This document shows positions 1 to 14,991 of a stretch of DNA of 64,000 nucleotides, piece after piece. The stretch is from an uncultured bacterium (lineage in GTDB: Bacteria; Oederibacteriota; PGYV01; Palsa-1178), in contig CALAOR010000079.1 of NCBI GenBank assembly GCA_937889595.1, positions 1-64,000 on the forward strand. Reading direction: 5' to 3'. The notes below the pieces were generated by a model, which was not told the DNA's origin, did not search any database, and saw only the letters and a list, made by a program, of their open reading frames with translations. The translations under genes and the position numbers were made by a program. Each line of letters opens with the position of its first letter. Position 1 is the stretch's first letter.

Positions 1-132
1 AACGCCTACGCCTACGCCTACGCCGCCGCCAGAGCCGCCGCCGCCGCCAGAGTCGCCGCCAGAGTCGCCGCCGCCAGAGCCAAGATGAAAACCAAAATAA
101 TAAAATATGGCATAACATTAATAAAAACATGA
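1..132 (+). CDS. Ala-rich phage protein, C-terminal fragment (5' partial)
   Basis: An open frame runs in from the window edge and stops with TGA at 130-132. It reads as an Ala/Tyr repeat, then Ala/Arg repeats, then a short tail beginning KMKTKIIKYG. Ala-Tyr and Ala-Arg low-complexity tails are common at the ends of hypothetical tailed-phage proteins. The same DNA also reads as Thr-Pro or Arg-rich peptides in the other + frames, so the frame choice rests on the tail and is uncertain. Function cannot be assigned. The GCC/TAC repeats themselves are clear. Confidence 0.4.
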   Translation, partial: NAYAYAYAAARAAAAARVAARVAAARAKMKTKIIKYGITLIKT

Positions 133-225
133 GAAAACGCAAGAGATACAAGCGCAGCTCGCTTATAGTTTACGGCAAGCCCGGATACGGGAAGGCAAAC
201 TTTAAAACACACGGGAGGAAAAGAA

Positions 226-681
226 ATGAACAGCGACACACCGCAAAACAAAAAGGAAATAATAATTAATGGCCGAAGCCAGGGATACATGGATGAAGCA
301 CAGCATCCTGGTGAGCTGGCCAGCCCGGATGAACGCGTCCGGCAGATGACAGCAATCAAAAAAGCAATGGATATCCAGGATGAAGCTCAAAAAAAGGCTA
401 TTGCCCGCGGACTTCCATATACAAATACAACAAGTTTTTATACGGATGAATACGACAGGCCGCTTTCATATTGGGATCCCAAAACCAGACAAAGCCATCC
501 CAAAATCTCCATACCTATATGCACGTCAATAAACATTATAAAAATTAGCAATAAAAAGGCAATCGTGGAAGTTGATAATTTTAGGCACGCCGGCAAGTTT
601 ACTATAAATGCTGACGCAATCACATACCCGGCGGATCCGGGAAAAACGGCCGGCGGGCCTGAAACGCGGGAGAATAAATGA
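226..681 (+). CDS. Hypothetical phage early protein, 151 aa
   Basis: The start is supported by GGGAGG eight bases upstream of ATG 226. The protein is polar and soluble-looking with no membrane segment and no domain that I recognise. Its C-terminal 12 or so residues (from about TAGGPETRENK) are encoded by a 29-nt repeat that recurs near 34.28 kb in the same prophage, where it is non-coding. The TGA overlaps the next ATG by four bases, so the two genes are probably translationally coupled. Confidence 0.65.
   Translation: MNSDTPQNKKEIIINGRSQGYMDEAQHPGELASPDERVRQMTAIKKAMDIQDEAQKKAIARGLPYTNTTSFYTDEYDRPLSYWDPKTRQSHPKISIPICTSINIIKISNKKAIVEVDNFRHAGKFTINADAITYPADPGKTAGGPETRENK
644..672 (+). repeat. 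29-nt dispersed direct repeat, copy 1
   Basis: The segment starts AAACGGCCGGCGGG and ends CGCGGGAG. It is identical to 34277-34305. In both places it sits directly before a start codon and supplies the GGGAG ribosome-binding core. Here it is also the 3' end of the preceding gene. Either a duplicated translation leader or a regulatory site would fit. Confidence 0.85.
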
Positions 682-881
682 AAAACACAGAGCAGGGAAC
701 GGCAATGATACCCATATTGGGTACCATTGAAATCAATACCGGAAAAATAGTCTGGAATAAAAAGGGAAAGGCATACTGGAAAGGTGTAACTGCTGAACAG
801 AAAAAACAAAAAAATACAATTACTGCAAGGCGCGCACTTTGGAAATATCCATACGAACCACAAAAGAAAAAACATGCTTAA
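678..881 (+). CDS. Hypothetical small phage protein, 67 aa
   Basis: A short basic protein, rich in Lys and Gln toward the end, starting in an ATGA overlap with the upstream gene and ending eight bases inside the methyltransferase gene. GGGAG of the dispersed repeat lies just upstream as ribosome site. No domain is recognised. Its tight packing in the early operon is the main reason for calling it real. Confidence 0.55.
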   Translation: MKNTEQGTAMIPILGTIEINTGKIVWNKKGKAYWKGVTAEQKKQKNTITARRALWKYPYEPQKKKHA

Positions 882-1311
882 AATTGTTGACCTGTTCTGC
901 GGCGCGGGTGGGGAGTCTGCCGGGATAGAAGGAGCCGCACAAAAAATGGGTGAAAAGCTGAATTTATCTGCCGTAAATCACTGGGAGACAGCAATCGCCA
1001 CGCATAAGCTTAATTTTCCTGATGCGGTTCATTACTGCGAATCAATACAGACCTTGAACCCGCTTGATGTATATAACGCAAAGGACCGCATTAATTTATT
1101 GTGGGCATCCCCAGAGTGCACACATCACAGCAACGCCCGCGGCGGTAGGCCATGTTCGGATCAATCACGGGCCTCGGCGTGGTTAATTTTGAAATGGTTG
1201 TCGGAACTGTACTGCCGGCGCGTAATTCTTGAAAACGTGCCGGAGTTTATAAATTGGGGACCGCTGGGATCGGACGGGCGGCCTCATAAAAATAAAGGGA
1301 GAAAAGCATGA
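874..1311 (+). CDS. C5-cytosine DNA methyltransferase, truncated after motif VI
   Basis: The N-terminus carries motif I (DLFCGAGG, residues 6-13), which binds S-adenosylmethionine. A PEC-type catalytic loop (ASPECTHHSNARGG) corresponds to motif IV, and ILENVPEF corresponds to motif VI. Phage relatives of this family usually continue for another 150 or more residues with the target-recognition domain and motifs VIII-X. Here the frame stops at 145 residues, right after GRPHKNKG, where a new ribosome site and ATG for the next gene appear. The missing motifs IX and X are needed for folding and cofactor binding in this family. I therefore infer an inactive remnant, or a gene trimmed by recombination. 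Confidence 0.8.
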   Translation: MLKIVDLFCGAGGESAGIEGAAQKMGEKLNLSAVNHWETAIATHKLNFPDAVHYCESIQTLNPLDVYNAKDRINLLWASPECTHHSNARGGRPCSDQSRASAWLILKWLSELYCRRVILENVPEFINWGPLGSDGRPHKNKGRKA

Positions 1312-1664
1312 TTATTAAGGATAAAAAGAAAAAATCGCCTTTCAAGGCAGCAATCACGGCCCAGGACGTGGCCGACCTGCTCAATGAGATGAACCGGCTG
1401 GATCCCCAGGCAACTCTGCAGCTGATCATCAAAACAAACGTACCGTGTAACAACGAAATAGCAAACCATAAGACCATCCAGGTATATGCGGATACGGCTG
1501 CAGGTACAGCCAAGCTTACCATGCTCGGGTTTTTAAATGGCCTTTTCGGTATTAACAAGGACGGATACGGATGCCTGGCCGCGGTGTTTGACGATAAGAC
1601 CGGCCGGCTCACTGAATTCCGGGCAAGTGACAATTTTAAGACGCAAGCCAAAATACCGGTATAG
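1308..1664 (+). CDS. Hypothetical phage protein, 118 aa
   Basis: Starts in an ATGA overlap with the truncated methyltransferase, preceded by GGGAGAAAAGC. The N-terminus is Lys-rich (KDKKKK). The body looks like a compact alpha/beta fold, with a phrase AITAQDVADLLNEMNRLDP that suggests a helical N-terminal half. I recognise no family. It lies in the early operon and ends with TAG 13 bases before the next start. Confidence 0.6.
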   Translation: MIIKDKKKKSPFKAAITAQDVADLLNEMNRLDPQATLQLIIKTNVPCNNEIANHKTIQVYADTAAGTAKLTMLGFLNGLFGINKDGYGCLAAVFDDKTGRLTEFRASDNFKTQAKIPV

Positions 1665-1677
1665 GGAGGAAGCTATA

Positions 1678-1890
1678 ATGGCTAATACTGATTTGATTAT
1701 AAATGCATGGGTAAGGCAGGATGATCCTATTACTTTTAAATCAAAATATTTGTCATTTGCAATTATGACAACCCGGCTATTTATGGGAGGAAACAAAAAA
1801 CCGAAAGTAAAGACAACAACTGCGGCAATACAATTTTTTCATCACTCTTTACAGATAAATTTCACAGTTGAATACAGGGGGAGGAACTGA
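1678..1890 (+). CDS. Hypothetical small phage protein, 70 aa
   Basis: The frame is open from further upstream, but GGGAGGAAGCTATA sits immediately before ATG 1678 and the preceding gene ends at 1664, so this start is chosen. The protein is short, with alternating hydrophobic and Thr/Lys residues. No domain is recognised. It ends in a TGATG overlap with the radical-SAM gene. Confidence 0.55.
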   Translation: MANTDLIINAWVRQDDPITFKSKYLSFAIMTTRLFMGGNKKPKVKTTTAAIQFFHHSLQINFTVEYRGRN

Positions 1891-2699
1891 TGCCTGATTT
1901 TCAAAGCGAACGGATAGGCACCGGGACAAAAGAGTGGAGCGACATAAGCCGGAACTGCGGGACCGGATGCGCAAACGGCTGTATTTACTGCTACGCGGCC
2001 TGGACAGCAATCTACCGGTATAAGCGAGTGAAGCCGGGGACCTGGACAGAGGAACGCATAAACATGGCCAAGGCCATGAAAAAGGAACCATACGGCCGGA
2101 ATCCCAACCAGGTGGTTATGTATCCGACACAGCACGACATCACCAAAGCATATTATGATGTCTCAATCCACAAGGTCCAGTATTTACTCGATGTAGGATA
2201 TAAGGTGCTGATCGTCACAAAACCCAGCTTTAAACTTTTTACCAGTTTTTGTGAGCACTTTAAAGAATATAAGGACCGCATCCTTTACCGGATCAGCCTG
2301 ACCAGTTTGGATCCAAACGCGGCCAAGCTTTATGAACCGGGCGCGCCAGCACCGGAGGAACGGTTGGCATGTTTGAAGTGGGCATTCAAATACGGATACC
2401 AGACCAGTCTGAGCGTAGAACCGATGCTGCCAAGTAAAGAATTCACATACCGCCGGATGGGAATGTATATATACCAGACGGTCGCGGAATTTGTCACAGA
2501 CACAATCTGGTACGGGACCATGAACCATGTACATAGCCGGATTGAAAACATAACACCAGCCTGGCAAAAGGAGATAGAGGATTTTCAGGCACCGGGAGAG
2601 GTTATACAACTATACCGGAGTTATCATCCGGCTGAAAACGCCTTAAAAATCAGGTGGAAGGATTCCGTCAAAAAAATCATCCAGGAGTACAAATCATGA
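1890..2699 (+). CDS. Radical SAM superfamily protein
   Basis: A 269-residue protein with a Cx3Cx2C cluster (CANGCIYC, residues about 28-35), the signature that ligates the [4Fe-4S] cluster of radical SAM enzymes. It is followed by YA, as in spore-photoproduct-lyase-like members. The rest fits a partial TIM barrel (VLIVTKPS, LYRISLTSLDP, TSLSVEPMLPS). Family knowledge says it should cleave S-adenosylmethionine to make a 5'-deoxyadenosyl radical; the substrate is unknown. It is coupled to an ASCH gene downstream by an ATGA overlap, which hints at nucleic-acid chemistry, but that is inference. Confidence 0.85.
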   Translation: MPDFQSERIGTGTKEWSDISRNCGTGCANGCIYCYAAWTAIYRYKRVKPGTWTEERINMAKAMKKEPYGRNPNQVVMYPTQHDITKAYYDVSIHKVQYLLDVGYKVLIVTKPSFKLFTSFCEHFKEYKDRILYRISLTSLDPNAAKLYEPGAPAPEERLACLKWAFKYGYQTSLSVEPMLPSKEFTYRRMGMYIYQTVAEFVTDTIWYGTMNHVHSRIENITPAWQKEIEDFQAPGEVIQLYRSYHPAENALKIRWKDSVKKIIQEYKS

Positions 2700-3037
2700 A
2701 AGCCATAAGCATCCGCTCGCCCTGGTGGGAGAAAATCATATCTGGGGAGAAAACCATAGAGACCAGGACCTGGAAAACCAAGTATCGCGGACAGCTGCTC
2801 ATCTGCGCAAGCAAACCGACAGGTCACGCAGTGGCCATCGCGTACTTGGCGGACTGCAGACCTATGACAAAGGCTGATGAAAAAGCTGCTTGCTGTCCTG
2901 TTTACCCGCGGGCAAATGCCTGGATGCTTAGAAATGTGATGGTACTTACAAAGCCCTTTCCAGTAAAAGGCAAATTATCATTATTTGACGTACAGCCTCC
3001 GACAGCCACCGTCGTTGTAAAGGATCTAAAATCATGA
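2696..3037 (+). CDS. ASCH-domain protein
   Basis: The 113-residue reading from ATG 2696 begins MKAISIRSPWWEKIISGEKT, the classic ASCH opening, followed by IETRTWKTKYRGQLLICASK. ASCH folds resemble PUA domains and are thought to bind RNA or modified nucleobases; some members are nucleases or amidohydrolases acting on modified cytidine. The start overlaps the stop of the radical-SAM gene, so the upstream in-frame Met is rejected. It also overlaps the DUF4031 gene by four bases. A role in nucleic-acid modification or its reversal is plausible but unproven. Confidence 0.85.
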   Translation: MKAISIRSPWWEKIISGEKTIETRTWKTKYRGQLLICASKPTGHAVAIAYLADCRPMTKADEKAACCPVYPRANAWMLRNVMVLTKPFPVKGKLSLFDVQPPTATVVVKDLKS

Positions 3038-3753
3038 CCGTATACGTCGAGGATTGCAGGATACCAAAGCGCGGGATGCTGTGGGCTCACATGATGGCCG
3101 ACACACTGCCCGAATTACACCTTATGGCCCAGCAGATAGGATTAAAGCGCCGCTGGTTTCAGGACAAAAAGCATCCGCACTACGACGTAGTCGACAAATA
3201 CAGGACCCGCGCTATTTATGACGGTGCCAAGCCTGTAAAGTCCTGCTTAATAGCCATGAGACCGAAAAAGGAAAGCCCGGCGCCGCGGCCGCAGAGTACC
3301 GTTACCACCGCCAAAACCATAACAAATAACAGCTCACAGCTTATATCTCGGAACGGATACATAAAGACCGGATCACTGCAAAAAGTAATTGATACGGGAG
3401 AGATAGTGGAGCTCACAGACATTACCGGCCAGGTGATAGGCATGCTGCAGAACTGGAACGCAATAAACATAGACGGCAAAATCAAAAATTATGAAATAAA
3501 GGAATTGAAACAACTCACGGAGGCGGATCATGAGCGAAAATCAGAATTTAAACTACACAGAGAAAAACAAAAGGCAGAAGTAGCTACTGCAGTTGGCGGA
3601 GACACTGCGGACCACAGCGGAGATTCAGGCAACATCCATAGAAGCGCTCGTAAAAGAGGTTCGGGCCGTGCCAATTACAAAAGAAGATATTCTCAAGATT
3701 ATGCGGATCAACTTAAAGCAGGGAACCCTCAACGGGATCTATGGACAGAATGA
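3034..3753 (+). CDS. DUF4031-domain protein with uncertain C-terminus
   Basis: Residues 1-80 (MTVYVEDCR, HMMADTLPELHLMA, RRWFQDKKHPHYDV) match the DUF4031 family, small phage and bacterial proteins of unknown function. Residues 105-165 look like a second small domain (NGYIKTGSLQKVIDTGEIVEL). After about residue 165 the sequence turns into Arg/Lys/Ser-rich text that looks like out-of-frame translation. It overlaps, for more than 200 bases, another frame with better coding character starting at ATG 3530 behind GGAGG. A frameshift or lost stop near 3530 is likely. Confidence 0.7.
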   Translation: MTVYVEDCRIPKRGMLWAHMMADTLPELHLMAQQIGLKRRWFQDKKHPHYDVVDKYRTRAIYDGAKPVKSCLIAMRPKKESPAPRPQSTVTTAKTITNNSSQLISRNGYIKTGSLQKVIDTGEIVELTDITGQVIGMLQNWNAINIDGKIKNYEIKELKQLTEADHERKSEFKLHREKQKAEVATAVGGDTADHSGDSGNIHRSARKRGSGRANYKRRYSQDYADQLKAGNPQRDLWTE

Positions 3754-3793
3754 AACCGCCGAGGAAATTATGAGAGTTATAAAAAACGGATGA
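3530..3793 (+). pseudogene. Small phage gene interrupted by an in-frame TAG
   Basis: GGAGGCGGATC precedes ATG 3530. The frame gives 17 codons, then TAG at 3581-3583, then continues open in the same frame for another 69 codons to TGA 3791-3793. The second part (LAETLRTTAEIQATSIEALV and onward) reads like a genuine amphipathic protein and could also start at TTG 3593. The two parts together would make an 87-codon gene. TAG is an ordinary stop elsewhere in this phage (for example 1664, 4522, 10790), so genetic recoding is unlikely. A point mutation, a sequencing error or a TTG re-start are the alternatives. Confidence 0.5.
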
Positions 3794-4137
3794 AAAGAAG
3801 GCATAAAAACATGACTAAACGCGCTATTCAGGACTTTAAAAAATTCGCAACGTCGGGCATGGGAGAGGCCAAATCCGCGGTTCTGGGAGGAGATAGGGCA
3901 AATGCACCTGCTCCGGGAAGGGATAGCAACGTAAACAATAGTGTCGCGCAGCCTTTTTTTGTGGCCTCAGATACCCATAAAACAGGCCTCTGTGACGCAC
4001 CGTGTGGCCCAGGGCTTGATTATTATGACCTTGGAGTACACATACTGGCTGGTTTTATAAATAACGCCCTTAAATTGACGGTGTCGGTTATTAATAACAT
4101 AACAAAAAAAAGGGGAGGAAGCCATGCAGCAATATAA
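3790..4137 (+). CDS. Hypothetical phage protein, 115 aa
   Basis: ATG 3790 overlaps the stop of the upstream frame. A second Met at 3811, behind AGAAGG, is an equally good start. No domain is recognised. The N-terminal third is basic (MTKRAIQDFKKFATSG), the middle is Gly/Ala/Asn-rich, and the end has a mildly hydrophobic helix (GVHILAGFINNALKLTVSV). It overlaps the FtsK-gamma gene by 14 bases, so the two are likely co-translated. Confidence 0.5.
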   Translation: MKRRHKNMTKRAIQDFKKFATSGMGEAKSAVLGGDRANAPAPGRDSNVNNSVAQPFFVASDTHKTGLCDAPCGPGLDYYDLGVHILAGFINNALKLTVSVINNITKKRGGSHAAI

Positions 4138-4522
4138 GCCGGGAGATGAAATTGTTTTTATTCGCAAATGTGAGGGAGTACAGGAAGGCGATAAAGGAAC
4201 CGTAATGGCAGCTGTTCAAGGTGAAATAAAAGGTCTTGTTTTTATGACATATTCAATTCAATTACATTCAGGTCAGAAAAAACAAATTGTAGAGACCAAC
4301 AATACAAAATTTTTGCAGGAAGTGAATAATGATAAAGGAAAACTGTACACGGCAGCACAAAAACTATTAAAAGAGCAGGGGGAGATTTCAACAAGCCAGT
4401 TACAACGGGCTTTAAGTATAGGCTACAGCAAGGCGGCTGATATCATTGATGCTTTAGAAGCCGAAAACCATATCACGAAAGCGGATGGAAATGGAAAAAG
4501 AAAAGCCATAAACGCGGGATAG
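4124..4522 (+). CDS. Small protein with C-terminal FtsK gamma domain
   Basis: 132 residues behind a GGGGAGG site. Residues 1-65 look like a small SH3/KOW-type beta barrel (KPGDEIVF, GDKGTVMAAV). Residues 71-130 match the winged-helix gamma domain of the DNA translocase FtsK: LYTAAQKLL, STSQLQRALSIGY, AADIIDALEAE, ADGNGKRKA. In E. coli this domain reads KOPS DNA and contacts XerD to switch on XerCD recombination at dif. No motor domain is present. Residues aligned to the E. coli KOPS contacts N1296, R1300 and E1303 (numbers from memory) are S102, D106 and D109, so KOPS reading may be lost or changed. Because the prophage ends at a dif site and no integrase is seen, I infer a role in controlling Xer-dependent integration or excision. 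Confidence 0.85.
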   Translation: MQQYKPGDEIVFIRKCEGVQEGDKGTVMAAVQGEIKGLVFMTYSIQLHSGQKKQIVETNNTKFLQEVNNDKGKLYTAAQKLLKEQGEISTSQLQRALSIGYSKAADIIDALEAENHITKADGNGKRKAINAG

Positions 4523-4560
4523 ACAATAAAACCGGTCAAACCGGGGAGAGAGGACTAAAC

Positions 4561-5316
4561 ATGGGACGAGTTCAACAATTAGATTCGGATTTCTGGGAGA
4601 ACGGATACACGGGAGACAAACTTGATCCAGCACAAAAACTGCTTTATGTTTATTTTATTACCGGTCCAAATGCAAACATCTGCGGTATTTACCAGGTAGC
4701 CATGAAAACCATTGAAGTTCACACCGGATATGACCGTTCGGCCATATTAACGATGTCAAAGAAGTTTGAACAGGATTTTAAAATTATGTACAGAGACGGA
4801 TGGGTGGCTGTGGCTGAACGCAGGGAACATAACAAACAGGACAATCCCAATATTCAAGCGGGAGCACTAAAAATTTACGAAACAGCTCCGCTTTTCGTAA
4901 AACAATTTATAAAAGACGCGAAAACACACAGAGAACAACAAAACGCTCTCACCGCCTCTGAACGGTTGGGTGACGGTCACATGACCGTTACACAACCGTT
5001 ACCTAACCCCAATACAATACAATCTAATAATTATAATTATAATAATACAATGGCGGAAATTTTGTTAATTTTTAGGGAGGTTTATTACGAAACAACGAAA
5101 ATAAAAGGAATAAACGAAGGTAGAGGACACTTCATCACGATAAACCAGGAGGATGAAAAGTTACTCAAGGAAAAGTTTGAAACTTTAACAGACACAGGAG
5201 AGCTGGGGAGGTCCTGGACGTATTTCTGTCAGCATTACGCGGGAGAAAACAAAATCCCATTGAATATCAAGACATTTTTAGCGCATTACGATAATTTAAC
5301 TAAAACAACGGCATAG
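4561..5316 (+). CDS. Phage replication initiator / replisome organiser-like protein
   Basis: 251 residues. The N-terminal 110 residues (SDFWENGYTGDKLDPAQKLL, FITGPNANICGIYQV, GYDRSAILTMSKKFEQDFKI, REHNKQDNPNIQAG) have the layout of phage replisome-organiser winged-helix domains, which bind the phage origin. A low-complexity Asn/Tyr linker follows (about residues 150-165), then a C-terminal helical domain that could load a helicase, as DnaD/O-type proteins do. Phased inverted iterons and an AT-rich tract lie inside the gene, as in lambda O. Start ATG 4561 follows GGGGAGAGAGG. Confidence 0.7.
   Translation: MGRVQQLDSDFWENGYTGDKLDPAQKLLYVYFITGPNANICGIYQVAMKTIEVHTGYDRSAILTMSKKFEQDFKIMYRDGWVAVAERREHNKQDNPNIQAGALKIYETAPLFVKQFIKDAKTHREQQNALTASERLGDGHMTVTQPLPNPNTIQSNNYNYNNTMAEILLIFREVYYETTKIKGINEGRGHFITINQEDEKLLKEKFETLTDTGELGRSWTYFCQHYAGENKIPLNIKTFLAHYDNLTKTTA
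4961..5076. other. Candidate phage origin of replication (iterons plus AT-rich tract)
   Basis: Four ACGGT boxes start at 4962, 4973, 4984 and 4995, exactly 11 bp apart, the last two in inverted orientation (ACCGT). They form an inverted repeat with 19-nt arms, 4961-4979 and 4982-5000, that match at 17 of 19 positions. About ten bases later comes a strongly AT-rich tract (5010-5076) suited to unwinding. It lies inside the putative initiator gene, the classic position for a lambdoid origin. Function is inferred from layout. Confidence 0.55.
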
Positions 5317-5331
5317 GCCAGGGAGGAACGA

Positions 5332-6066
5332 ATGAAACCATTTTTAAAACAGTTAATAGATTGCATTGAAAGTTGGGTTTTGATAGGCGCGTTTATTATT
5401 TTTATTATTTTAATCTTCGGACATTTACCCACGGGAGAAAAGAAAAACAAAGCAATAACACCGGCAGTCCTGCAGGAACGGATACAACAGACACGCACAT
5501 ACGTGGCTATTTTGGAAACAATTAATTATTACAAGACAAACAATGATGACAACGGATATAGCCAGAACGCAGAACATCTGCTGCAGGTTTGGAATTTCTG
5601 CAAAGTATATGCACCAATGATTACCGAGGACTGCTGGATTGAACAGTTACGTCAACCGGAAACTTATAAAGCTAAAATACGCGCGGAGATAGAATCAATC
5701 GATATCCCGCTTTTTATGTTCTGCCTTTGTAGCGATGAAAGCGGATTTCAACCGGACGCAATTCACATAAATAAAAACAAAAGCCAGGATAGCGGAATAA
5801 CACAAATTAACCAGACCTGCCAGAGTGAAATCACTGCCCGGATGCAAATAACCGATTTTAAGGACCGGCCATGGACCGACATGGAAAAGAACATCGCCGG
5901 CCGTTATATCTGGATTATGATGCGTGCAAAGGATGGAATGGCATGGAAACAGATGACAAAGCGCCGTGGGTGGAAGCTTTATAAACTGATATCCGAGAAA
6001 ATCAAAAATTTTCAGCTGACGCAGGGAGGGAGCGATGAACGCTATACAACTACAGCTGCAGACTGA
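5332..6066 (+). CDS. Membrane-anchored lytic transglycosylase-like protein
   Basis: 244 residues with an N-terminal transmembrane helix (about residues 15-31, WVLIGAFIIFIILIFG). A C-terminal lysozyme-like domain of the SLT type follows: CSDESGFQPDA, with Glu136 as the expected catalytic acid, then SGITQINQ, the usual second motif. The family cleaves glycan strands of peptidoglycan with 1,6-anhydro ends. Its place in the early/replication block, rather than in the tail or lysis region, is odd. The single helix with the enzyme outside would place it on the periplasmic side. ATG 5332 follows GGGAGGAACG. Confidence 0.7.
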   Translation: MKPFLKQLIDCIESWVLIGAFIIFIILIFGHLPTGEKKNKAITPAVLQERIQQTRTYVAILETINYYKTNNDDNGYSQNAEHLLQVWNFCKVYAPMITEDCWIEQLRQPETYKAKIRAEIESIDIPLFMFCLCSDESGFQPDAIHINKNKSQDSGITQINQTCQSEITARMQITDFKDRPWTDMEKNIAGRYIWIMMRAKDGMAWKQMTKRRGWKLYKLISEKIKNFQLTQGGSDERYTTTAAD

Positions 6067-6307
6067 TAAAGACATTACCCTGGCTCTCAGCCAGACGGAC
6101 TGCACGTTTGACTTTATCTGGAAGTTGGCAGATCCGGAAAATAGAATTTATAGACTTAAGATCATTTTAAGGGATGACTTGGAAACCGCCGCATTTTACA
6201 AACAGTATTTATTAACAACACTCCGCGGGTACATAGCGGCCGGCGGAGCATTACCCGCGGCCGGAATTAAAATAAACCAAAAACAGGGAGACCAAAACAA
6301 TGGTTAA
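6035..6307 (+). CDS. Hypothetical phage protein, 90 aa
   Basis: Begins inside the 3' end of the transglycosylase gene behind GGGAGGGAGCG, giving strong ribosome-site support. It is a compact polar protein (LQTDKDITLALSQTDCTFDF, RIYRLKIILRDDL) ending in Gln/Gly/Asn-rich sequence. It overlaps the ParB-like methyltransferase start by eight bases. I recognise no family. Confidence 0.55.
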   Translation: MNAIQLQLQTDKDITLALSQTDCTFDFIWKLADPENRIYRLKIILRDDLETAAFYKQYLLTTLRGYIAAGGALPAAGIKINQKQGDQNNG

Positions 6308-7841
6308 AAAGCAGACAACGAAAAAGGCAAAAGAACCAGATACCATGAAGGGAATGGCCAGTGGCATACCGGTTTATTGCCGGTTTGATGAAATCCTTAA
6401 AATTGAAAAAGCAATGCCACATCCCAAAAATCCAAACACACATCCGGAACGGCAAATAGAATTATTGTCGCGTATAATCCGGAGCCAGGGATTCCGCGCG
6501 CCGATAACCATATCACAGCGGAGCGGATTCATTACCCGCGGTCATGCGCGGCTTGCTGCATCCAGGGTTCTGGCACTCACAGAGATACCGGTTGAATATC
6601 AGTTTTACAAGGATGAAAACTCTGAACTTGAGGACATGATCGCCGATAATAAGATTGCGGACTTTGCAAAAATTGACAGAAAAGTATTAAAAAGCATCGT
6701 CAGCGACATGCAAAAAACTGGCGCGGATTTAAGCCTGACAGGAATGGACAGTGATGAATTACTGCAACTTTTGAAAAACGAACAGCATGAGCCTACAGCT
6801 GAAATTGAAAAACCCAAAAAGACCAGGACAAAGCTCGGTGACATTTGGGAATTGGGAAAACACCGCCTGATATGCGGTGACAGCACAAAAGCAGATACAG
6901 TTATGAAACTCATGAATGGAAAAAAAGCGCATTTATTATTTACGGATCCACCATACGGTGTGAATTACGGAGAAAACAGCAAACAACCAAACAAGACTGA
7001 AGGCGGAAAAAGAAAAGGAAAGCTGATCATCGGTGACGATTTAAAAAAGAACAATCTGATCAACACGCTTTTACTTCCGGCTTTTAAACTGGCGTTTCAA
7101 CACACGCGTGATGATGCTGCTTTTTTCATATGGCACGCCAGCTCTACAAAATCGGACTTTGACTATGCAGTCCGGGCAGCAAACCTGGAAGAAAAACAGC
7201 AAATAATCTGGATCAAGCCACAGTTTGTCCTTGGCCGTTCGGATTACCACTACAAACATGAACCGGCAATTTACGCGCAAAAGATAGGACACAAAGCGCG
7301 CATGTTTGGAAACCGCGATCAATCAACGGTTTGGGAATTTCAGGCAGCAGGAATCAACAAAGGTGATTTTTCAATAGGCAGCGGAATAAGGCTAAGCATG
7401 GATTCCGGCATGGAGATATTTATAAAAAAACAAGCTCCAAAAAGCTATAAGGGACGCATCATGCGGCTCAAGGACGGAGAAAAACTAACGCTTTCAGTTG
7501 ATGATGGCAATTCAGATACATGGTTTATATCTCCGGATAACAAAAACACATATGCACATCCAACACAAAAACCCACTGAACTCGCTGAACTCGCTGAACT
7601 CGCTATACGCAACCATACTAATCCGGAGGATATAGTGCTCGACTTATTCAGTGGCTCAGGCAGCACGCTTATAGCAGCAGAGAAAACAGAGCGCGTGGCC
7701 AGAGTAAGCGAGATAGATCCAGGTTACTGTGACATGACAGCAATCAGATACGCACGCTTCTGTAAACAGAACAAACGCACCTACAGCATCAAGCTTAATG
7801 GGACGGACATAACAGCAGACTACAAGGACACAGGCATATAA
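6300..7841 (+). CDS. ParB-like domain / DNA methyltransferase fusion (N6-A or N4-C type)
   Basis: 513 residues. Residues about 30-140 form a ParB/sulfiredoxin-like domain (HPKNPNTHPERQIELLSRII, FITRGHARLAASRVL, IPVEY). The methyltransferase domain follows, with catalytic motif DPPYG near residue 219 and the cofactor motif DLFSGSGSTLIAAE near residue 447. The order, catalytic motif before cofactor motif, is the beta class of amino-methyltransferases. Such fusions are widespread in phages and are thought to modify phage DNA against restriction or for regulation. The start overlaps the preceding gene, behind GGGAGACC. Confidence 0.9.
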   Translation: MVKKQTTKKAKEPDTMKGMASGIPVYCRFDEILKIEKAMPHPKNPNTHPERQIELLSRIIRSQGFRAPITISQRSGFITRGHARLAASRVLALTEIPVEYQFYKDENSELEDMIADNKIADFAKIDRKVLKSIVSDMQKTGADLSLTGMDSDELLQLLKNEQHEPTAEIEKPKKTRTKLGDIWELGKHRLICGDSTKADTVMKLMNGKKAHLLFTDPPYGVNYGENSKQPNKTEGGKRKGKLIIGDDLKKNNLINTLLLPAFKLAFQHTRDDAAFFIWHASSTKSDFDYAVRAANLEEKQQIIWIKPQFVLGRSDYHYKHEPAIYAQKIGHKARMFGNRDQSTVWEFQAAGINKGDFSIGSGIRLSMDSGMEIFIKKQAPKSYKGRIMRLKDGEKLTLSVDDGNSDTWFISPDNKNTYAHPTQKPTELAELAELAIRNHTNPEDIVLDLFSGSGSTLIAAEKTERVARVSEIDPGYCDMTAIRYARFCKQNKRTYSIKLNGTDITADYKDTGI

Positions 7842-7842
7842 G

Positions 7843-8220
7843 ATGCCAACAAAGCGACCACGGCAATGCGCGGTCGCGGGATGCAGCGCAATCATTCCAA
7901 TCGGTGAAGTTTACTGTACCATTCACCGCAAGGAAAAGTTTAAACGATACGAACAAACCCGCGATATAAAGATCAAGAGGTTTTACTCCACACAAGTCTG
8001 GAAGGATTTCAGACGCATGAAACTCGCACGCAATCCACTGTGTGAGCTTTGTCTTGCAGAGACAGGAAGGCCAGTCGAGGCAAAGATGGTACATCACCTT
8101 GATCCAGTCACAGAAGGCGGCACCTTTCTGCCTACATTTGAGGAAACACAGTCAGTATGTTACAAACATCACGCGATTCTGCATCCAAAAGGCGTGATAA
8201 AGAGCAGTATTCATGCATAA
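7843..8220 (+). CDS. HNH endonuclease
   Basis: 125 residues. N-terminal Cys pair region (CAVAGCS, YCTIH), then an HNH core: NPLCELCLAETGR, VHHLDPV, and CYKHHAILH. The zinc-binding Cys pairs and the catalytic His are present. In HK97-type phages an HNH gene commonly sits right before the terminase genes and assists DNA packaging cleavage. Here it is one base after the methyltransferase stop and directly upstream of terS, so that role is likely. Its ribosome site is weak, suggesting coupling to the upstream gene. Confidence 0.9.
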   Translation: MPTKRPRQCAVAGCSAIIPIGEVYCTIHRKEKFKRYEQTRDIKIKRFYSTQVWKDFRRMKLARNPLCELCLAETGRPVEAKMVHHLDPVTEGGTFLPTFEETQSVCYKHHAILHPKGVIKSSIHA

Positions 8221-8236
8221 TAACAACACTATTTCA

Positions 8237-8258
8237 GCATCCCACCAGGGGGGGATGC
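8237..8258 (+). other. Hairpin between HNH and terS
   Basis: GCATCCC (8237-8243) can pair with GGGGATGC (8251-8258). The loop is short and no T-run follows, so it is not a standard terminator. It sits in the 117-base leader of the terminase operon. Confidence 0.4.
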
Positions 8259-8337
8259 AAATGTTGACAGCACTTCACGAAAAGACAGCGTGGCAATCAC
8301 GTGTGAATTTTCTGGAAACTCGGCAGGGGGGGGCATA

Positions 8338-8889
8338 ATGGCCGGCGGCAGACCTCCAAAGTCAATCAAGGATCACGAATTAAACGGCAATCCATCAAAA
8401 CTCGATTTACAAGCAATGAAAAAAAAAGTTTTGCGTTTGCCTTTTGATCCGGATTCATTCAAGGCACCGGCATGGATTAAAAAAAATAAAATTGCCAAAA
8501 AGGTTTGGAAAAAAACAGTCCAGGACCTAACTATGAAGGGAGTACTCGCAGGCGTTGATCTCCCACTGCTTGCCGGTTACTGTATGGCTTACGCCCAGAT
8601 GGTTAAAGCCGGGGAGTTTTTGAACCGGATGCCGGACGGCGATCAATTTACAAAAATAACACAAACTGGATATTTGCAAGTGCTGCCACAAGTGGGCATG
8701 TTCCGGCAGGCAGCCCAGGACGTCAAGAGTTTCGGCGATGCGTTATTCTGTACACCGGTCAGCCGGCAGCGCGGTCTTGGATCCGGAGACGATTCACCAG
8801 GCAATACGGATTCAGAAATGGACGGCATCCTCAATCAGGCCAGGGACCGCGTAAAGAAAAATCTAAAAGTTATTAAGGGAAAAAAATAA
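8338..8889 (+). CDS. Terminase small subunit (P27 family)
   Basis: 183 residues from ATG 8338 behind a G-rich ribosome site; the frame is open further upstream, but the family usually begins AGGRPPK-like, as here. Features include GGRPPKS, AWIKKNKIAKKVWKK, a hydrophobic helix LPLLAGYCMAYAQMVKAG and a Gly/Asp-rich tail, typical of P27-type TerS. It recognises viral DNA and feeds it to the large subunit. It ends 0-1 bases before terL. Confidence 0.88.
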   Translation: MAGGRPPKSIKDHELNGNPSKLDLQAMKKKVLRLPFDPDSFKAPAWIKKNKIAKKVWKKTVQDLTMKGVLAGVDLPLLAGYCMAYAQMVKAGEFLNRMPDGDQFTKITQTGYLQVLPQVGMFRQAAQDVKSFGDALFCTPVSRQRGLGSGDDSPGNTDSEMDGILNQARDRVKKNLKVIKGKK

Positions 8890-10551
8890 ATGGCCGCGGT
8901 GAAGCACCGGAGAATTCCAAAACAGGATAACATTCTCACTGCGACCAGGTACCGGTCCAAGGAGTTAGAAGATCGCGTAGTTAATTTTTTTAAATGTCTA
9001 CGGCATACCAAAGGCGAGTGGTCCGGAAAACTCTTTCAGCTGCAGGACTGGCAAGAAGATAAAATTTTAAGGCCGTTATTTGGAACCGTTTGGGCTGATG
9101 GCACGCGCTGTTTTCGCAAGGCTTATATTTCCACTGCCAGAAAAAATGGCAAGACCGAACTCGGTGCCGGCATTGCTTTATATATGCTTACGGCCGACGG
9201 CGAGCAGGGCGCTGAGATTTACAGCTGTGCCGGGGACAAAGAACAGGCATCCCTGGTTTTCAATGCAGCCAAAAGAATGGTTGAAACAAACCCAACACTC
9301 CGGAAAAAATGCCGCATCATAGAGTCACAAAAGAGAATCGTTTATAAACCGACAAATTCCTTCTACCGGGTTATTTCGGCCGACGCAAAATTCAAGCACG
9401 GCTTTAATGCGCACTGCGTTATTTACGACGAACTCCACGTCGCCAGGAACCGCGAACTTATGGACGTACTCAGTACCTCAATGAAGGCTCGCCGGCAGCC
9501 ACTCCTCATAGCAATTACAACGGCCGGATTTGATTTAAAAACCATCTGCGGCGAGATGTACCTTTATGCCCAAAAAGTTCTGGCAAAAAAAATATACGAT
9601 CCGACATTTTTCCCTTTTATATGTGAGACAGACAAAAAAGATAAGTGGGATAATCCTAAAACCTGGGCAAAGGCAAACCCCGGACTCGGGACCATGATCA
9701 ACATGCGCGATATCCAGGCTGAGGTACTCGAAGCCAAGGATAATCCTGTCCGGCAAAATATATTTTTACAGCTCACACTCAACCAATGGACACAGGCGCA
9801 CAGCCCATGGATCCCGGAAAGCATATGGCATGCCAGCGCCGGAAAATTTGATCCTGAGGAACTGCTCGGCGCGAGATGTTTTGGAGGTCTTGATCTCGCA
9901 AGTATCAATGACGTTGCGGCTTGGGTTTTAACATTTCCTTTTTATGAGATGGTGCGGGACGAAAATACCGGAGAGGATAAAGAGGAAATAGAAAAGGTCA
10001 TCCAGCTTTATAAATTTTTTATCCCTGAGGAAAACATGAAACAACGAAGCTTACGCGAAGGCGTACCTTACGACAAGTGGGCGGCCCAGGGATATCTTAC
10101 GCCTACACCGGGTAATGTCATAAGTTTTTCCGCAATTAAATATCAGATACAGGAGGACGCGCGAGTTTATGATCTGCAAAGTTTGAACTTTGACCCATGG
10201 AATGCAGCCCGACTGGTACAGGAACTCGAGGATGAAGCTGGACGGCCGGAGGATAACCCATTTACAATTCAAATTAGAATGGGATTTCCATCAATGAGCG
10301 GTCCAACAAAAGAATTTGAGATACTTACCCGCAAGAAAAAGCTATGGCATGGCGACAATCCGGTGATGACATGGATGATGAACAACGTTGCAATATCCAG
10401 GGATGCCATGGAAAATATAAAACCGGATAAGAAAAAAAGCAAGGAAAAGATAGACGGCGTCACAGCCGGCATTATATCTTTGGACCGCGCGCTGCGCAGT
10501 CCGTCCGTCGGCGGTGGAGTCTACGACAAAGGCGGGATTAAAACATTATGA
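8890..10551 (+). CDS. Terminase large subunit
   Basis: 553 residues, the usual length for the HK97-type Terminase_1 family. The ATPase has a Walker A-like STARKNGKTE (about residues 79-88) and Walker B VIYDELH (about 177-183). The C-terminal RNase-H-like nuclease begins with GGLDLASINDVAAW. The protein cuts concatemeric DNA and pumps it into the prohead. It overlaps the next gene by four bases. Confidence 0.95.
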   Translation: MAAVKHRRIPKQDNILTATRYRSKELEDRVVNFFKCLRHTKGEWSGKLFQLQDWQEDKILRPLFGTVWADGTRCFRKAYISTARKNGKTELGAGIALYMLTADGEQGAEIYSCAGDKEQASLVFNAAKRMVETNPTLRKKCRIIESQKRIVYKPTNSFYRVISADAKFKHGFNAHCVIYDELHVARNRELMDVLSTSMKARRQPLLIAITTAGFDLKTICGEMYLYAQKVLAKKIYDPTFFPFICETDKKDKWDNPKTWAKANPGLGTMINMRDIQAEVLEAKDNPVRQNIFLQLTLNQWTQAHSPWIPESIWHASAGKFDPEELLGARCFGGLDLASINDVAAWVLTFPFYEMVRDENTGEDKEEIEKVIQLYKFFIPEENMKQRSLREGVPYDKWAAQGYLTPTPGNVISFSAIKYQIQEDARVYDLQSLNFDPWNAARLVQELEDEAGRPEDNPFTIQIRMGFPSMSGPTKEFEILTRKKKLWHGDNPVMTWMMNNVAISRDAMENIKPDKKKSKEKIDGVTAGIISLDRALRSPSVGGGVYDKGGIKTL

Positions 10552-10790
10552 GCCTTAAATTCTACAGCATCCAGGACGCGGACAAACAGCTGGAGGCCAT
10601 CCAAAAACGGGATGACATCATAAAAATGGTGTATGAAATTTATAAAAAAAAGTATCCAAAATACTCAAATGACGATTTGGTGATCATGATTGCGGAAAAG
10701 TCCGGCCTGGGCCGTTCTACGATTTGGGAGATAATAGCACGAACTGGCGGAGAATCTGTCTACGATAAAAGAGGTCTCCGATTCTTATAG
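10548..10790 (+). CDS. Small helix-turn-helix-like phage protein, 80 aa
   Basis: Coupled to terL by an ATGA overlap. A mostly helical protein whose second half, YSNDDLVIMIAEKSGLGRST then IWEII, resembles a helix-turn-helix of the invertase or resolvase C-terminal kind. No firm family assignment. It could regulate the packaging or head operon, or serve as a packaging accessory. Both are guesses. Confidence 0.55.
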   Translation: MSLKFYSIQDADKQLEAIQKRDDIIKMVYEIYKKKYPKYSNDDLVIMIAEKSGLGRSTIWEIIARTGGESVYDKRGLRFL

Positions 10791-10818
10791 TAATTAGCTT
10801 TTCCAATTTCTGGAGTGA

Positions 10819-10847
10819 TTGACCCTTTCTTAATCCCATTTTAAATG
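10819..10847 (+). promoter_or_regulatory. Possible weak promoter before the portal gene
   Basis: TTGACC at 10819 and TAAATG at 10842 are spaced by 17 bases, in the 105-base gap before the portal gene. The -35 match is good and the -10 match is poor, so this is only a candidate. Confidence 0.2.
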
Positions 10848-10895
10848 TTATTTTCCGGTTGAAATCAAAAACATACAAAGGCCGGAGGGCAAAAT

Positions 10896-12317
10896 TTGGG
10901 AATCCGCAATTTCATGTTCGATGTAAGCAAGCGAGCAATGGCATTTTTTGCACCGAGCCAGGACATCGCCTCGCTATACGGACCCTCATCAAACTCAGCT
11001 GCCGGCACGGTAGTAACCGAACGCACGGCAATGAACCTCGGAACTGTTTACGCCTGCGTCCGGATTATAGCGGAAACGATAGCATCAATGCCGCTCGTTC
11101 TTTACCGGACAAAAAATGGACAGCGCTCGCCAGCGACACAGCATCCGGCATACCAGCTCATGCGCTACAAGCCAAACGATGAAACACATGTACAGGATTA
11201 CCTGACGTTTGAAATATCTTCGCGGCTTTTGTGGGGAAATGGATACAGCCAGACACTCTGGCGCGGAGACGGCAAGCCTTACAAGCTGGTGCAGATGAAT
11301 CCGGAGCGCACTACCGTTTTAAGAGACCTATCAACAAAAGAGATAACATATAGAACCACTGACCTTTTCGGATACATCGTTGAGCTGTCCAAGGATGATG
11401 TGACACACATACACGGGCTCGGCTTTGATGGGATCACAGGCAAGAGCGTGATCAGCCTGGCCAGGGAAGCAGTAGGTCTCGCACTCGGTGCCGAAGCATT
11501 CGGCGCTAAATTCTACGGTGATGGTGCACATCCCGGCGGAGTACTGACACATCCGGGGACGCTCAGCAAGCCGGCATATGAACGGTTGAAAAAAGATTTT
11601 AAGGATAGGCAGTCTGGACTTGACAAGGCACATGACACGCTGATCCTCGAGGAAGGACTGAAATGGCAGCAGATAACAATCCCGCCGGACCAGGCCCAGT
11701 TCATAGCGACCAGGACATTTCAAAAAAGTGAGATAGCACAATGGTATGGGGTACCGCTTCCGCTCCTGCAGTCGACGGAAAAAAGTTCATCCTGGGGAAC
11801 CACGGTTATCCAGATGGTTGACGGATTTATAAAATTCACGCTTCTGCCGATCATGAAGCAAATTGAACTGGAATATTTGACAAAATTATTTTTGCCGAAG
11901 GATTGGGACAGTTATGAATTTAGTTTTATTAACCAGGAACTCGTCAAGGAAACTCTGTTAAATAGATTTACAGTCTACGGAATGGCAATCACAAGCGGAA
12001 TATTTTCGATTAATCAAGTCCTCGCGATGGAAGGCATGGACCCCATCAATGGCGGCGACAAACATATCCAGCCGCTGAACATGAAGGACATAACGGCACC
12101 GGATCCGGCGCTGGCCGCAGCAGCAAACGGTGAAGGGGATGGAAACGGTGAGGAAGGCGATGGTGCCGCGGCGGAGACAGAGGATGACACGGAGGACGGT
12201 ACCGACAATGCTGATGACAATGCTGGAAAAAGCAAAAAGAAAAATGTGGAAGTCACCGACGAAAACGACGGTGACACCGTAAAAATAAAAAAAGTAAAAG
12301 ACGGAGGTAAGAAATGA
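10896..12317 (+). CDS. Portal protein (HK97 gp3 family)
   Basis: 473 residues starting at TTG 10896, chosen because GGAGGGCAAAA lies just upstream and the N-terminus MGIRNFMFDVSKRA fits the family. Diagnostic stretches include LGTVYACVRIIAETIASMPL, HPAYQLMRYKPN and KSEIAQWYGVPLPLL. The C-terminus is an acidic Asp/Glu/Gly-rich tail ending in Lys-rich sequence. Twelve copies form the ring through which DNA enters the head. It overlaps the protease gene by four bases. Confidence 0.95.
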   Translation: MGIRNFMFDVSKRAMAFFAPSQDIASLYGPSSNSAAGTVVTERTAMNLGTVYACVRIIAETIASMPLVLYRTKNGQRSPATQHPAYQLMRYKPNDETHVQDYLTFEISSRLLWGNGYSQTLWRGDGKPYKLVQMNPERTTVLRDLSTKEITYRTTDLFGYIVELSKDDVTHIHGLGFDGITGKSVISLAREAVGLALGAEAFGAKFYGDGAHPGGVLTHPGTLSKPAYERLKKDFKDRQSGLDKAHDTLILEEGLKWQQITIPPDQAQFIATRTFQKSEIAQWYGVPLPLLQSTEKSSSWGTTVIQMVDGFIKFTLLPIMKQIELEYLTKLFLPKDWDSYEFSFINQELVKETLLNRFTVYGMAITSGIFSINQVLAMEGMDPINGGDKHIQPLNMKDITAPDPALAAAANGEGDGNGEEGDGAAAETEDDTEDGTDNADDNAGKSKKKNVEVTDENDGDTVKIKKVKDGGKK

Positions 12318-12970
12318 AAAAAGAAATCAGAACGTATAACTTTGAGATCCGGGCACTCGATGACAACAAGGACGGCAATATGGTCATAGAGGGACATGCC
12401 GCGGTGTTTGATCAGGAATATAATTGCGGGGAGTTTGATGAAACCGTAAAGCGCGGAGCCTTTACCCAGGCAGTAAAGGAAGATGACGTCTGCTGCCTAT
12501 GGCAGCATGACATGGGAAAGCCGCTCGGCAGGACCACAAACAATACCCTGCAGTTAAAAGAGGATGAAACCGGACTCGCAATGCGCTGTGAGATGGCGCC
12601 GACTACATACGCCAAGGATCTGCAGACACTAATCAAGCGCAAGGACATAACGCAAATGAGTTTTTCATTCAATCCACGGAGCTACATCGCGGCGGACAGC
12701 AATGGAGACCAGCATGAGATGGACGGAGACTCCTGGAGCTTTGTTAATAACAGGTGGAAACGGCAACTCACAAACTGCAAGCTTTACGATGTAAGCCCGG
12801 TCGCGTTCGGGGCAAATTCAAATACGGATGTGAGCACAAGATCGCTGGAAATATTTGAATCCATAAAAACAAAAGCGGCTGATAAAACAGCCCAGGAAAT
12901 AAAATCACAGGCCCAGGCAGCCGCCGCGGCACGCGGCAGGTCCCTGGAGCTCAAAATCAAGGAGGTTTAA
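12314..12970 (+). CDS. Prohead protease (HK97 family, U35)
   Basis: 218 residues. GHAAVFDQEY and RGAFTQAV are typical of the fold. The expected catalytic His is in LWQHDMGKPLGRT (about residue 65) and the Ser is in TQMSFSFNP (about residue 116). It processes the capsid protein and scaffold during maturation. It is coupled to the portal gene by an ATGA overlap and lies two bases before the capsid start. The C-terminal Ala/Arg/Gln-rich helix may act as scaffold. Confidence 0.94.
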   Translation: MKKEIRTYNFEIRALDDNKDGNMVIEGHAAVFDQEYNCGEFDETVKRGAFTQAVKEDDVCCLWQHDMGKPLGRTTNNTLQLKEDETGLAMRCEMAPTTYAKDLQTLIKRKDITQMSFSFNPRSYIAADSNGDQHEMDGDSWSFVNNRWKRQLTNCKLYDVSPVAFGANSNTDVSTRSLEIFESIKTKAADKTAQEIKSQAQAAAAARGRSLELKIKEV

Positions 12971-12972
12971 AA

Positions 12973-14256
12973 ATGAAAGTAGCATTAACGACAGGCGAAA
13001 CGGAATTTAAAGTACAGGAAGCTGCCGACAAGAGAGCAATGATCTTTGAGGATATGAAAAAACTCAACGATCTGAGTTCAAAGGAAGGCAGGGCAATGAC
13101 CACTGAGGAAAAAAGCAAGTGGGATGCCATGAACAAAGACGTGGACGCGCTGCGCGGGGCAATTGACCAGGAATCAGACGCAAACAAGCGCACAAAAATG
13201 CTTGAGGACCTGGATGCGCAGATGAAGGCACCGCTTAAGGGCCAGCACGATGTGCGGCAGGACACCAGGGCAATCGACATCCACAGCAAGATACCCCAGG
13301 AGATGCGCGACGCGTATGTCCAGTTTTTCAGGAATGGACAGTTAAACGACGCGGAAAAGCGCGCACTGCTTGCCGGCACGGATACCCAGGGCGGATATTT
13401 GATCACGCCGCAGATCCTGGCAAAGGAAATAATTCATGCCGCAAACATGGTAACGCTTTTTAAGGGGATGACATCAAACTTCCCGGTTACCACAGCGGCA
13501 TCGCTCGGAGTTCCGACCCTGGATACAGACGTAGACGACTGCGACTGGACACCGGAAGCGACGATAGGCAACGAATCGACCGGCCAGAAGTTCGGGAAAA
13601 GGGAACTCAAACCTTACCCGCTCGCCAAGTTTATAAAAATCAGCAACCAGCTGATCAGGCAGGTCGACATTGACGTGACCGCGTTCATCAACTCCAGGCT
13701 CGGATATAAGATAGCGGTCGCCCAGGAAGCCGCGTATATGACCGGAGACGGCGTAAACAAGCCGCTCGGCATTTTCACAGCAAACGATATGGGCATCGGA
13801 ACCGCGCGGGACGTGCCACAGGACGTCGCGCATATCGCTGGCTTCACGGGCAACGATATAATCAACATGTTCTACGGGATCAGGCCGGCATACAGGCCAA
13901 AAGCACAGTGGGTAATGAATCCCATCATCGTGAAATACGTCCGCAAGTTTAAGGGCGCGGTAAACCAGGATTATCTCTGGCAGCCAGGTCTACGCGGCGA
14001 TGAACCCGACACACTGCTCGGGAAAAAGATTTACACTTCCGAAAAAGCTCCGGCCGCGGTAACTGACAGCGCCTATACGATGGTATTCGGCGATTTCAGC
14101 TATTACTACACGGTCGACTGCCTGGCAATAGTGATCCAGAGGCTGAATGAACTGTTTGCGGCCTCGAACCAGACAGGGTTCGTCATCAGGTACGAGGGAG
14201 ACGGAATGCCGGTACTCGCCGAGGCATTTGCAAGACTTATAATCCCGGCGGCATAA
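12973..14256 (+). CDS. Major capsid protein (HK97 fold)
   Basis: 427 residues. The N-terminal 110 residues form a coiled-coil delta/scaffold domain (KRAMIFEDMKKLNDLSSKE, ALRGAIDQESDANKR). The mature HK97-fold part starts near LAGTDTQGGYLITPQILAKE and includes KLVKFIKISNQLI-like text (actual KPYPLAKFIKISNQLI), GVNKPLGIFT and VRYEGDGMPVLAEAFA near the end. The protease next door probably removes the delta domain. It is preceded by AAGGAGG. A 150-base gap with hairpin follows, which may limit expression of downstream genes. Confidence 0.94.
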   Translation: MKVALTTGETEFKVQEAADKRAMIFEDMKKLNDLSSKEGRAMTTEEKSKWDAMNKDVDALRGAIDQESDANKRTKMLEDLDAQMKAPLKGQHDVRQDTRAIDIHSKIPQEMRDAYVQFFRNGQLNDAEKRALLAGTDTQGGYLITPQILAKEIIHAANMVTLFKGMTSNFPVTTAASLGVPTLDTDVDDCDWTPEATIGNESTGQKFGKRELKPYPLAKFIKISNQLIRQVDIDVTAFINSRLGYKIAVAQEAAYMTGDGVNKPLGIFTANDMGIGTARDVPQDVAHIAGFTGNDIINMFYGIRPAYRPKAQWVMNPIIVKYVRKFKGAVNQDYLWQPGLRGDEPDTLLGKKIYTSEKAPAAVTDSAYTMVFGDFSYYYTVDCLAIVIQRLNELFAASNQTGFVIRYEGDGMPVLAEAFARLIIPAA

Positions 14257-14317
14257 AGAAAAACCCCTTTTTTGAAAGTATAAGATTTATTTTTACCGGC
14301 CGCTCGGATGACTAAAC

Positions 14318-14351
14318 GCCGGAACCCTGCAAGCGGCTGCAGGAAACCGGC
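14318..14351 (+). other. Two-part hairpin downstream of the capsid gene
   Basis: GCCGG pairs with CCGGC and, inside, CCTGCA pairs with TGCAGG. The two helices are separated by symmetric three-base bulges and closed by a six-base loop. There is no T-run. It could stabilise the capsid mRNA or attenuate readthrough. Confidence 0.5.
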
Positions 14352-14406
14352 AGAACTAAAAACAACGCGAAATTAAAATATCGCGGAGACAAGATGGAGG
14401 CAATCA

Positions 14407-14829
14407 ATGCAACTTTCAAATGAAGCAAAAATAACAGGCGTAAAGGAAACAACCGCCGGCACCACAGAGGTAGACAGCGGCGCGATTGACATGCAGGGAT
14501 ACGACGGCGTGATGTGCGTTGTGCGCGTGAACGTAAACAACGCGGGCAATTACTTAAAGGCCCAGAGTGACGTAGCATCAGGTCTGGGAACGGTCGCGGA
14601 TATTGCCGGCAGCAAAGTAGTCTGCACGGGAGCCGATGAATTTCTGTTCATCGACATTTACAGGCCACAGAAAAGGTACGTCCAGTTTGCAGTCATCCGC
14701 GGAGCATCCACGGCAACCGGAGATATGGTGATACTGCGCTACAGCGGCGACAAAAAACCGGAAGTAAACGCAACACTCAACGCACTGGCCGGAGTTTTCC
14801 TCCAGAGCCCTGCGGACGGTACCGCTTAA
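14407..14829 (+). CDS. Putative virion protein (capsid decoration or head fibre-like)
   Basis: 140 residues, rich in beta-prone Val/Thr/Gly stretches (GYDGVMCVVRVNVNNAG, EFLFIDIYRPQKRYVQFAVI). The position right after the capsid gene, a strong GGAGG site and its own downstream terminator suggest an abundant structural protein such as a decoration protein. No specific family is recognised; this is inference from size, composition and place. Confidence 0.6.
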   Translation: MQLSNEAKITGVKETTAGTTEVDSGAIDMQGYDGVMCVVRVNVNNAGNYLKAQSDVASGLGTVADIAGSKVVCTGADEFLFIDIYRPQKRYVQFAVIRGASTATGDMVILRYSGDKKPEVNATLNALAGVFLQSPADGTA

Positions 14830-14838
14830 TTTAAAAAG

Positions 14839-14872: not shown

Positions 14873-14885
14873 AAATTTCCTCCCT

Positions 14886-14919: not shown

Positions 14920-14957
14920 TAACTGGGAAAAAAGAAGGCAAAAAACGAACTTATAAA

Positions 14958-14973: not shown

Positions 14974-14991
14974 AAAAAAACGGAGGATGAA

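Follow-up and report, generated by a model that had tools for sequence, protein, structure and literature searches.

The stretch of DNA analysed here (64,000 nucleotides, henceforth called the window) begins at a terminus of contig C79 in a genome of 3.42 Mb and 93 contigs, and comprises the right 35.8 kb of a prophage (1..35811, delimited by its att junctions) followed by host chromosome (35823..64000). Within an intact phage gene block, an intact open reading frame on the forward strand (4124..4522; ATG start, ribosome-binding site AGGGGAGG upstream) encodes a motorless FtsK gamma protein of 132 aa, for which the ORF, Pfam, phmmer, and structure models gave an N-terminal small barrel and a C-terminal gamma domain. 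The gamma winged helix (aa 70–127; 4331..4504, forward strand) was delimited by alignment and by Pfam FtsK_gamma (PF09397), which matched residues 70–127 with 61.3 bits (cut-off 30.6, E = 7.3e-17) and was the sole Pfam domain passing its cut-off; MarR and other winged helices fell under theirs and were rejected as the identity of these residues. Against solved structures, phmmer retrieved the FtsK gamma entries 2j5o, 2ve8, and 2j5p as well as the XerD-gamma fusion 5dcf. The gamma part was modelled by AlphaFold (12-row alignment) with a pLDDT of 90–96, and all eight Foldseek matches of this model with E ≤ 0.001 were FtsK gamma structures (2ve8, 2ve9, 2j5o, 2j5p; E 3e-4 to 1e-3, rmsd 1.0–1.7 Å). 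Neither a RecA-like motor nor a membrane region, as would mark an FtsK/SpoIIIE translocase, was detected by Pfam in the 132 aa. Judged by sequence profiles and models, the gamma domain is a true member of the FtsK gamma family, but the protein as a whole is not an FtsK. This bears out an earlier interpretation made from the DNA letters without database searches (the sequence-only reading), which had assigned residues 71–130 to an FtsK gamma winged helix lacking motor and membrane parts, and had proposed a family profile search and a structure prediction of the protein alone as checks; assignment to an unrelated winged helix, which it had named as counter-evidence, was not the outcome of the profile search.

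The same reading had described the gamma domain as fused to a small barrel. SH3-like strands were indeed predicted for about aa 1–60 (4124..4303, forward strand) in a single-sequence AlphaFold model, at moderate confidence (pLDDT about 68–86), and a fold search with this part returned no significant match (best E 0.096), so that the barrel stands as a prediction of strands.

The gamma gene lies in an early replication block, away from attP. The next gene (4561..5316, forward strand) encodes a homologue of replisome organisers and DnaD-like helicase loaders (PHROG 6251, E = 1e-11; PHROG 1701, E = 2e-8). A large terminase subunit of tailed-phage type (8890..10551, forward strand) was named from its sequence, gene order, and phage relatives and not from a profile search, and a Cro/CI-type HTH protein, possibly a phage regulator (35121..35414, forward strand; HTH_3, E = 9e-16), adjoins attR.

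The right end of the prophage is marked by a single complete 28-bp dif (AGTTAACATAAGATACATTATGCGAAGT, 35795–35822; chance expectation 0.00), identified by a dif search and from relatives. This attR (35795..35822, forward strand) is a complete host dif with the XerD arm at 35795–35805, the central region at 35806–35811, and the XerC arm at 35812–35822. An equivalent was present once in each of the 11 related genomes (11/11, at most 3 mismatches), and in most of these relatives the genes to the right of dif are those found to the right of 35823. By searching with the XerD arm and central region of dif, attL (AGTTAACATAAGATACA-GAACGCGATTG) was located beyond the window on contig C54 of the same genome, where host DNA is followed by AGTTAACATAAGATACA and then by GAACGCGATTG and phage DNA. 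A third hit to the dif half-site, on contig C93 and with one mismatch, diverges from dif in the XerD arm and central region. The C54 phage part holds the left 3.6 kb of the prophage, giving a total of about 39 kb (about 3.6 + 35.8 kb); a leader motif found there also accompanies two phage genes of the window, and its terminal gene is alanine-rich and of low complexity, with a tail that apparently forms the start of the window. The left host flank on C54 was not conserved in the relatives examined, so that no synteny was available on that side. Illumina adapter sequence (AGATCGGAAGAGCGTCGTGTAGGGAAAGTGT...) was found at the end of C54 (L031, 1–51), an artefact of assembly that coincides precisely with the contig break in the prophage.

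The sequence common to attL and attR, TAGTTAACATAAGATACA, comprises the XerD arm and the central region, both in full. In place of the XerC arm, the phage sequence agrees with dif at 5 of 11 positions, a chance level that is reached by 10% of random phage positions. As read from the two junctions, attP is thus a site that retains the XerD arm and the central region and has no recognisable XerC arm. The proposal that the gene belongs to a dif-integrated prophage is confirmed by the complete dif at 35795–35822, by the host flank shared with relatives, and by attL on C54.

Across the whole genome, the tyrosine recombinase profile PF00589 was found in two proteins only, XerC (on C57) and XerD (on C65), and no serine recombinase (PF00239) was found. 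No recombinase was found in the approximately 39 kb of prophage either, a small gap being left between C54 and C79; these two profiles leave recombinases of other types possible. Hence, either host XerCD or an enzyme of a different kind must have carried out the integration. With dif-derived sequence at both ends (attR at 35795–35822, attL on C54) and no integrase of its own detected by these profiles, the element is, by its sequence features, an integrative mobile element exploiting Xer (IMEX). The host chromosome to the right of dif was recognised from gene order kept in relatives, GC skew, and KOPS. The E. coli-type KOPS GGGNAGGG is oriented 17:1 towards dif in the 135 kb to the right (binomial p about 1e-4), which indicates an active FtsK/KOPS system, and GC skew flips sign at dif, from +0.03 within the prophage to −0.085 on its right. 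The site at 35795–35822 is the host's dif, approached from the right by a normal FtsK/KOPS layout.

By alignment, R95 of the phage protein (4406–4408, forward strand) corresponds to R1289 of E. coli FtsK and D106 (4439–4441, forward strand) to R1300; the E. coli residue numbers were obtained by counting back from the C-terminus of the E. coli sequence. Gamma is reportedly active in isolation, a result ascribed to Grainge in 2011. R95 is invariant across the gamma alignment, in agreement with the earlier claim that the XerD contact is kept. That claim had been coupled with changes at three KOPS-contact positions (S102, D106, and D109), of which only D106 is specific to the phage: S102 and D109 are the residues of the host's own FtsK (GYSKAARIID), and three phage-specific changes were therefore discarded, whereas the R1300 position holds D in the phage gamma and R in every correctly extracted host gamma of the phylum. 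In E. coli, R1289 contacts XerD, whose activation suffers most when this residue is changed (PMC5052618), and R1300 contacts KOPS, its change to alanine (R1300A) abolishing KOPS reading while XerCD-dif recombination is fully supported (PMC2680272). The phage gamma is therefore probably KOPS-blind, as judged from this alignment. KOPS and XerD share a binding surface on gamma. Fusions of gamma to XerC or XerD activate recombination with no need of the motor, nine gamma residues being sufficient (PMC5052618).

As to the origin of the domain, alignment scores placed the ten compared FtsKs of the host's order as its ten closest gammas (128–144), viral gammas reaching at most 118 and the remaining FtsKs of the phylum at most 114. 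These relationships suggest capture of the phage gamma from the host lineage. Row L159 was left out of the score table and of the second gamma tree (60 columns), in which the branching was not resolved; in the first tree, which included this mis-extracted row, the phage gamma sat on a long end branch. That branch and the charge reversal at R1300 would fit a remnant of an ftsK gene that was captured from the host, has lost its function, and is now drifting. Such decay is highly improbable, given the intact ORF with its ribosome-binding site in an intact phage gene block, the predicted fold of high confidence (pLDDT 90–96), and the retention of core residues including R1289. No relative of the full 132-aa protein was found in viral contigs, no second stand-alone gamma copy in 45 genomes of the phylum, and no homologue with the barrel-plus-gamma architecture. 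Among phage relatives, which were sought by the large terminase, the DnaD-like protein, and a tail protein, one close relative was found (L270, terminase 78% identical), whose contig stops short of the gamma region.

Motorless gammas were surveyed in viral contigs, where 235 gamma-encoding loci were found and 80 kept; all 80 lacked a motor and had no dif nearby. Within 45 distinct viral gamma proteins, the fusion partners were RdgC (14/45), GapR (7/45), and RMF (5/45); NA37, SSB, small-terminase, and VapE-like domains occurred once each. Most viral gammas keep R1300 and the KOPS-reading residues. A gamma match was present in 371 of 50,697 phage records, some of them with motors or being bacterial contigs. 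Among phage records, an annotated 'FtsK gamma domain protein' lies 2 kb from an integrase, and in a mycobacteriophage with its own integrase an 'FtsK-like' protein adjoins RecE/RecT/RusA. Phage DNA-binding proteins such as RdgC, GapR, and others thus repeatedly carry a motorless gamma module, either at the C-terminus or internally (L188–L267, P0001–P0003). At the R1300 position, E was seen in the RdgC-gamma proteins of L156 (Vibrio phage Valp1), L201, and L206; Valp1 and L201 are protelomerase phages of linear-plasmid type. This is an independent acidic change at the KOPS position that is altered in the window protein. CAKLQF020000028.1 (L157), labelled 'Acinetobacter phage MD-2021a', contains a full-length ftsK, minCDE, and aat in the inspected stretch and looks like a mislabelled bacterial contig.

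The survey proposed by the sequence-only reading, of whether gamma phages sit at dif, showed no association: 40 whole viral records with a motorless gamma included none with dif and 25 with a tyrosine integrase of their own, and no gamma was found in 28 dif-bearing viral records among the matches listed. Both are weak negatives, as the records listed for dif were largely short contigs and the ends of provirus records have often been cut off. The window prophage is to date the one instance seen of gamma together with dif, and there is no sign that phage gammas are generally Xer factors. Homologues found mainly in phages with integrases of their own had been named beforehand as counter-evidence; this holds for the gamma domain, whereas no homologue of the barrel-plus-gamma protein was found. 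The integrase count does not settle the case, since no such homologue exists among the sequences retrieved and the ten best relatives are FtsKs of the host's order.

These frequencies bear on an alternative according to which the protein would be one more phage DNA-transaction protein with a captured gamma as a DNA- or protein-binding module for replication, recombination, or nucleoid control. The recurrence of motorless gammas in phages, the integrases found where dif is absent, and the DnaD-like replication protein adjoining the gene all speak for it. Yet most phage gammas keep R1300 and this one has lost it, which weakens a DNA-reading role; the RdgC, GapR, RMF, NA37, and SSB domains and the like that accompany other phage gammas are all absent from the 132-aa protein by Pfam; and its gamma is nearest to host FtsK and not to phage gammas. 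We regard this alternative as a serious one of less than even probability. Its corollary, that the prophage sits at dif by coincidence and was integrated by host FtsK in the ordinary way, is given similar, clearly sub-even weight. Against it, gamma is rare in phages, making a chance pairing with dif unlikely a priori, although this case was chosen for being striking.

The reading we favour is that the protein is a host-derived, probably KOPS-blind, soluble and diffusible XerD activator of an Xer-dependent tailed phage (IMEX), to which we assign about an even chance from the sequence features described. Slightly below even, we place the wider proposal that a tailed phage captured the XerD-activating domain of host FtsK with loss of KOPS reading, and thereby acquired a motor-free switch of XerCD for integration and excision outside the divisome; the part of it that makes host XerCD the phage's 'integrase', with the activator as the phage's sole contribution, carries the same not-quite-even weight. 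In the proposed sequence of events, free gamma would bind XerD on attP/dif or attL/attR, and gamma-bound XerD would set off a strand exchange, with XerD acting first, over the XerD arm and central region, which are identical in the two sites. The exchange would occur away from the septum and without KOPS-guided translocation, and lead to integration or induced excision. As attP has a XerD arm and no recognisable XerC arm, its anatomy implies that XerD, the enzyme activated by gamma, should start the reaction, and a septum-independent activator role is plausible in fitting the anatomy of the att sites. Since KOPS use the same gamma surface as XerD, titration by chromosomal KOPS would be a concern, from which the loss of R1300 may keep the free gamma; we propose this rationale here. 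Since no XerC arm is recognisable in attL, excision of the prophage by the FtsK activity of ordinary divisions would be inefficient.

Several points stand against the activator reading: most phage gammas occur in integrase phages without dif, the gene lies in the early replication block, R1300 is changed to E in the RdgC-gamma of a non-integrating protelomerase phage, host XerD has D-Y where E. coli XerD has E183-E184, and the experimental support comes from R1300A and fused gamma, not from R1300D or a free barrel-gamma protein. The sequence-only reading had offered, beside activation, that the protein might occupy XerD, or join host FtsK, and so block excision of the prophage at every division. 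A pair of Xer sites separated by 39 kb would otherwise be a target for FtsK-activated deletion, and the XerD contact R95 is kept. Gamma contact, however, activates XerD (PMC5052618), hence occupation fits less well and blocking would need a further change not evident in the sequence; a block of XerD would also harm dimer resolution of the host, and attL without a XerC arm can already explain stability. We consider such a lock improbable.

In the activator reading, the closest known systems are the following. FtsK gamma of E. coli and P. aeruginosa FtsK (PF09397; 2j5p, 2ve8, 2ve9, 5dcf) shares family, winged-helix fold, and XerD-contact arginine with the window protein, which differs in having no motor or membrane part, an added small barrel, and D at R1300. 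TLC phage, a Vibrio IMEX, encodes the XerD activator XafT (cited in PMC9765430); the likeness to the window protein, whose function would be analogous, is that of an element-encoded XerD activator freeing integration from FtsK. The two are likened by proposed function and not by sequence; the window factor has a genuine FtsK gamma domain and belongs to a tailed phage. The IMEX of CTX, VGJ, and TLC phages, the gonococcal genetic island (GGI), and Legionella LME-1 share insertion at dif, lack of an own recombinase, and one modified dif end, whereas the window element has a tailed-phage gene set of about 39 kb, an intact XerD arm in attP, and a gamma gene. TLC phage and the GGI have an intact XerC side and a divergent XerD arm (PMC5357621), the reverse of the window attP, in which the XerD arm is kept and the XerC arm missing; the modified GGI and LME-1 sites have been proposed to explain stability (PMC5357621, PMC9765430). 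Phage RdgC-gamma, GapR-gamma, and small 'FtsK gamma domain' proteins (PHROG 13700, 6576; Skulduggery, phi297, Valp1, Vibrio phage 417E50-1) show the same motorless gamma in tailed phages, but with other partner domains, mostly with KOPS residues kept, many with an own integrase, and none with dif.

Stand-alone phage gammas annotated in databases and an IMEX-encoded XerD activator (XafT, cited in PMC9765430) are already known, and the open-licence literature searched yielded no earlier description of a tailed prophage at dif that lacks an integrase and carries a gamma domain. Few cases are known of how XerCD-borrowing elements escape the FtsK checkpoint (XafT in TLC phage; passage of translocating FtsK through difGGI). 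If the activator reading holds, a phage copy of the activating domain of this checkpoint would be direct molecular mimicry, a natural mutation would separate XerD activation from KOPS reading, and a compact activator for XerCD assays would be at hand.

Among the other phage genes, the leader GGCCTGAAACGCGGGAG occurs at 656–672, at 34289–34305, and, with one mismatch, at the phage end of C54, directly before the start codons of at least 3 phage genes, and is possibly a shared translational or regulatory element. A truncated C5 cytosine methyltransferase of 145 aa (874–1311) in the phage early region matched positions 1–115 of 324 of PF00145 only. Radical-SAM and ASCH-domain proteins are adjacent in the early block (1890–3037); ASCH and unusual early cargo recur in other gamma-bearing phages, and in RcKai (L294) an ASCH gene lies near the gamma gene.
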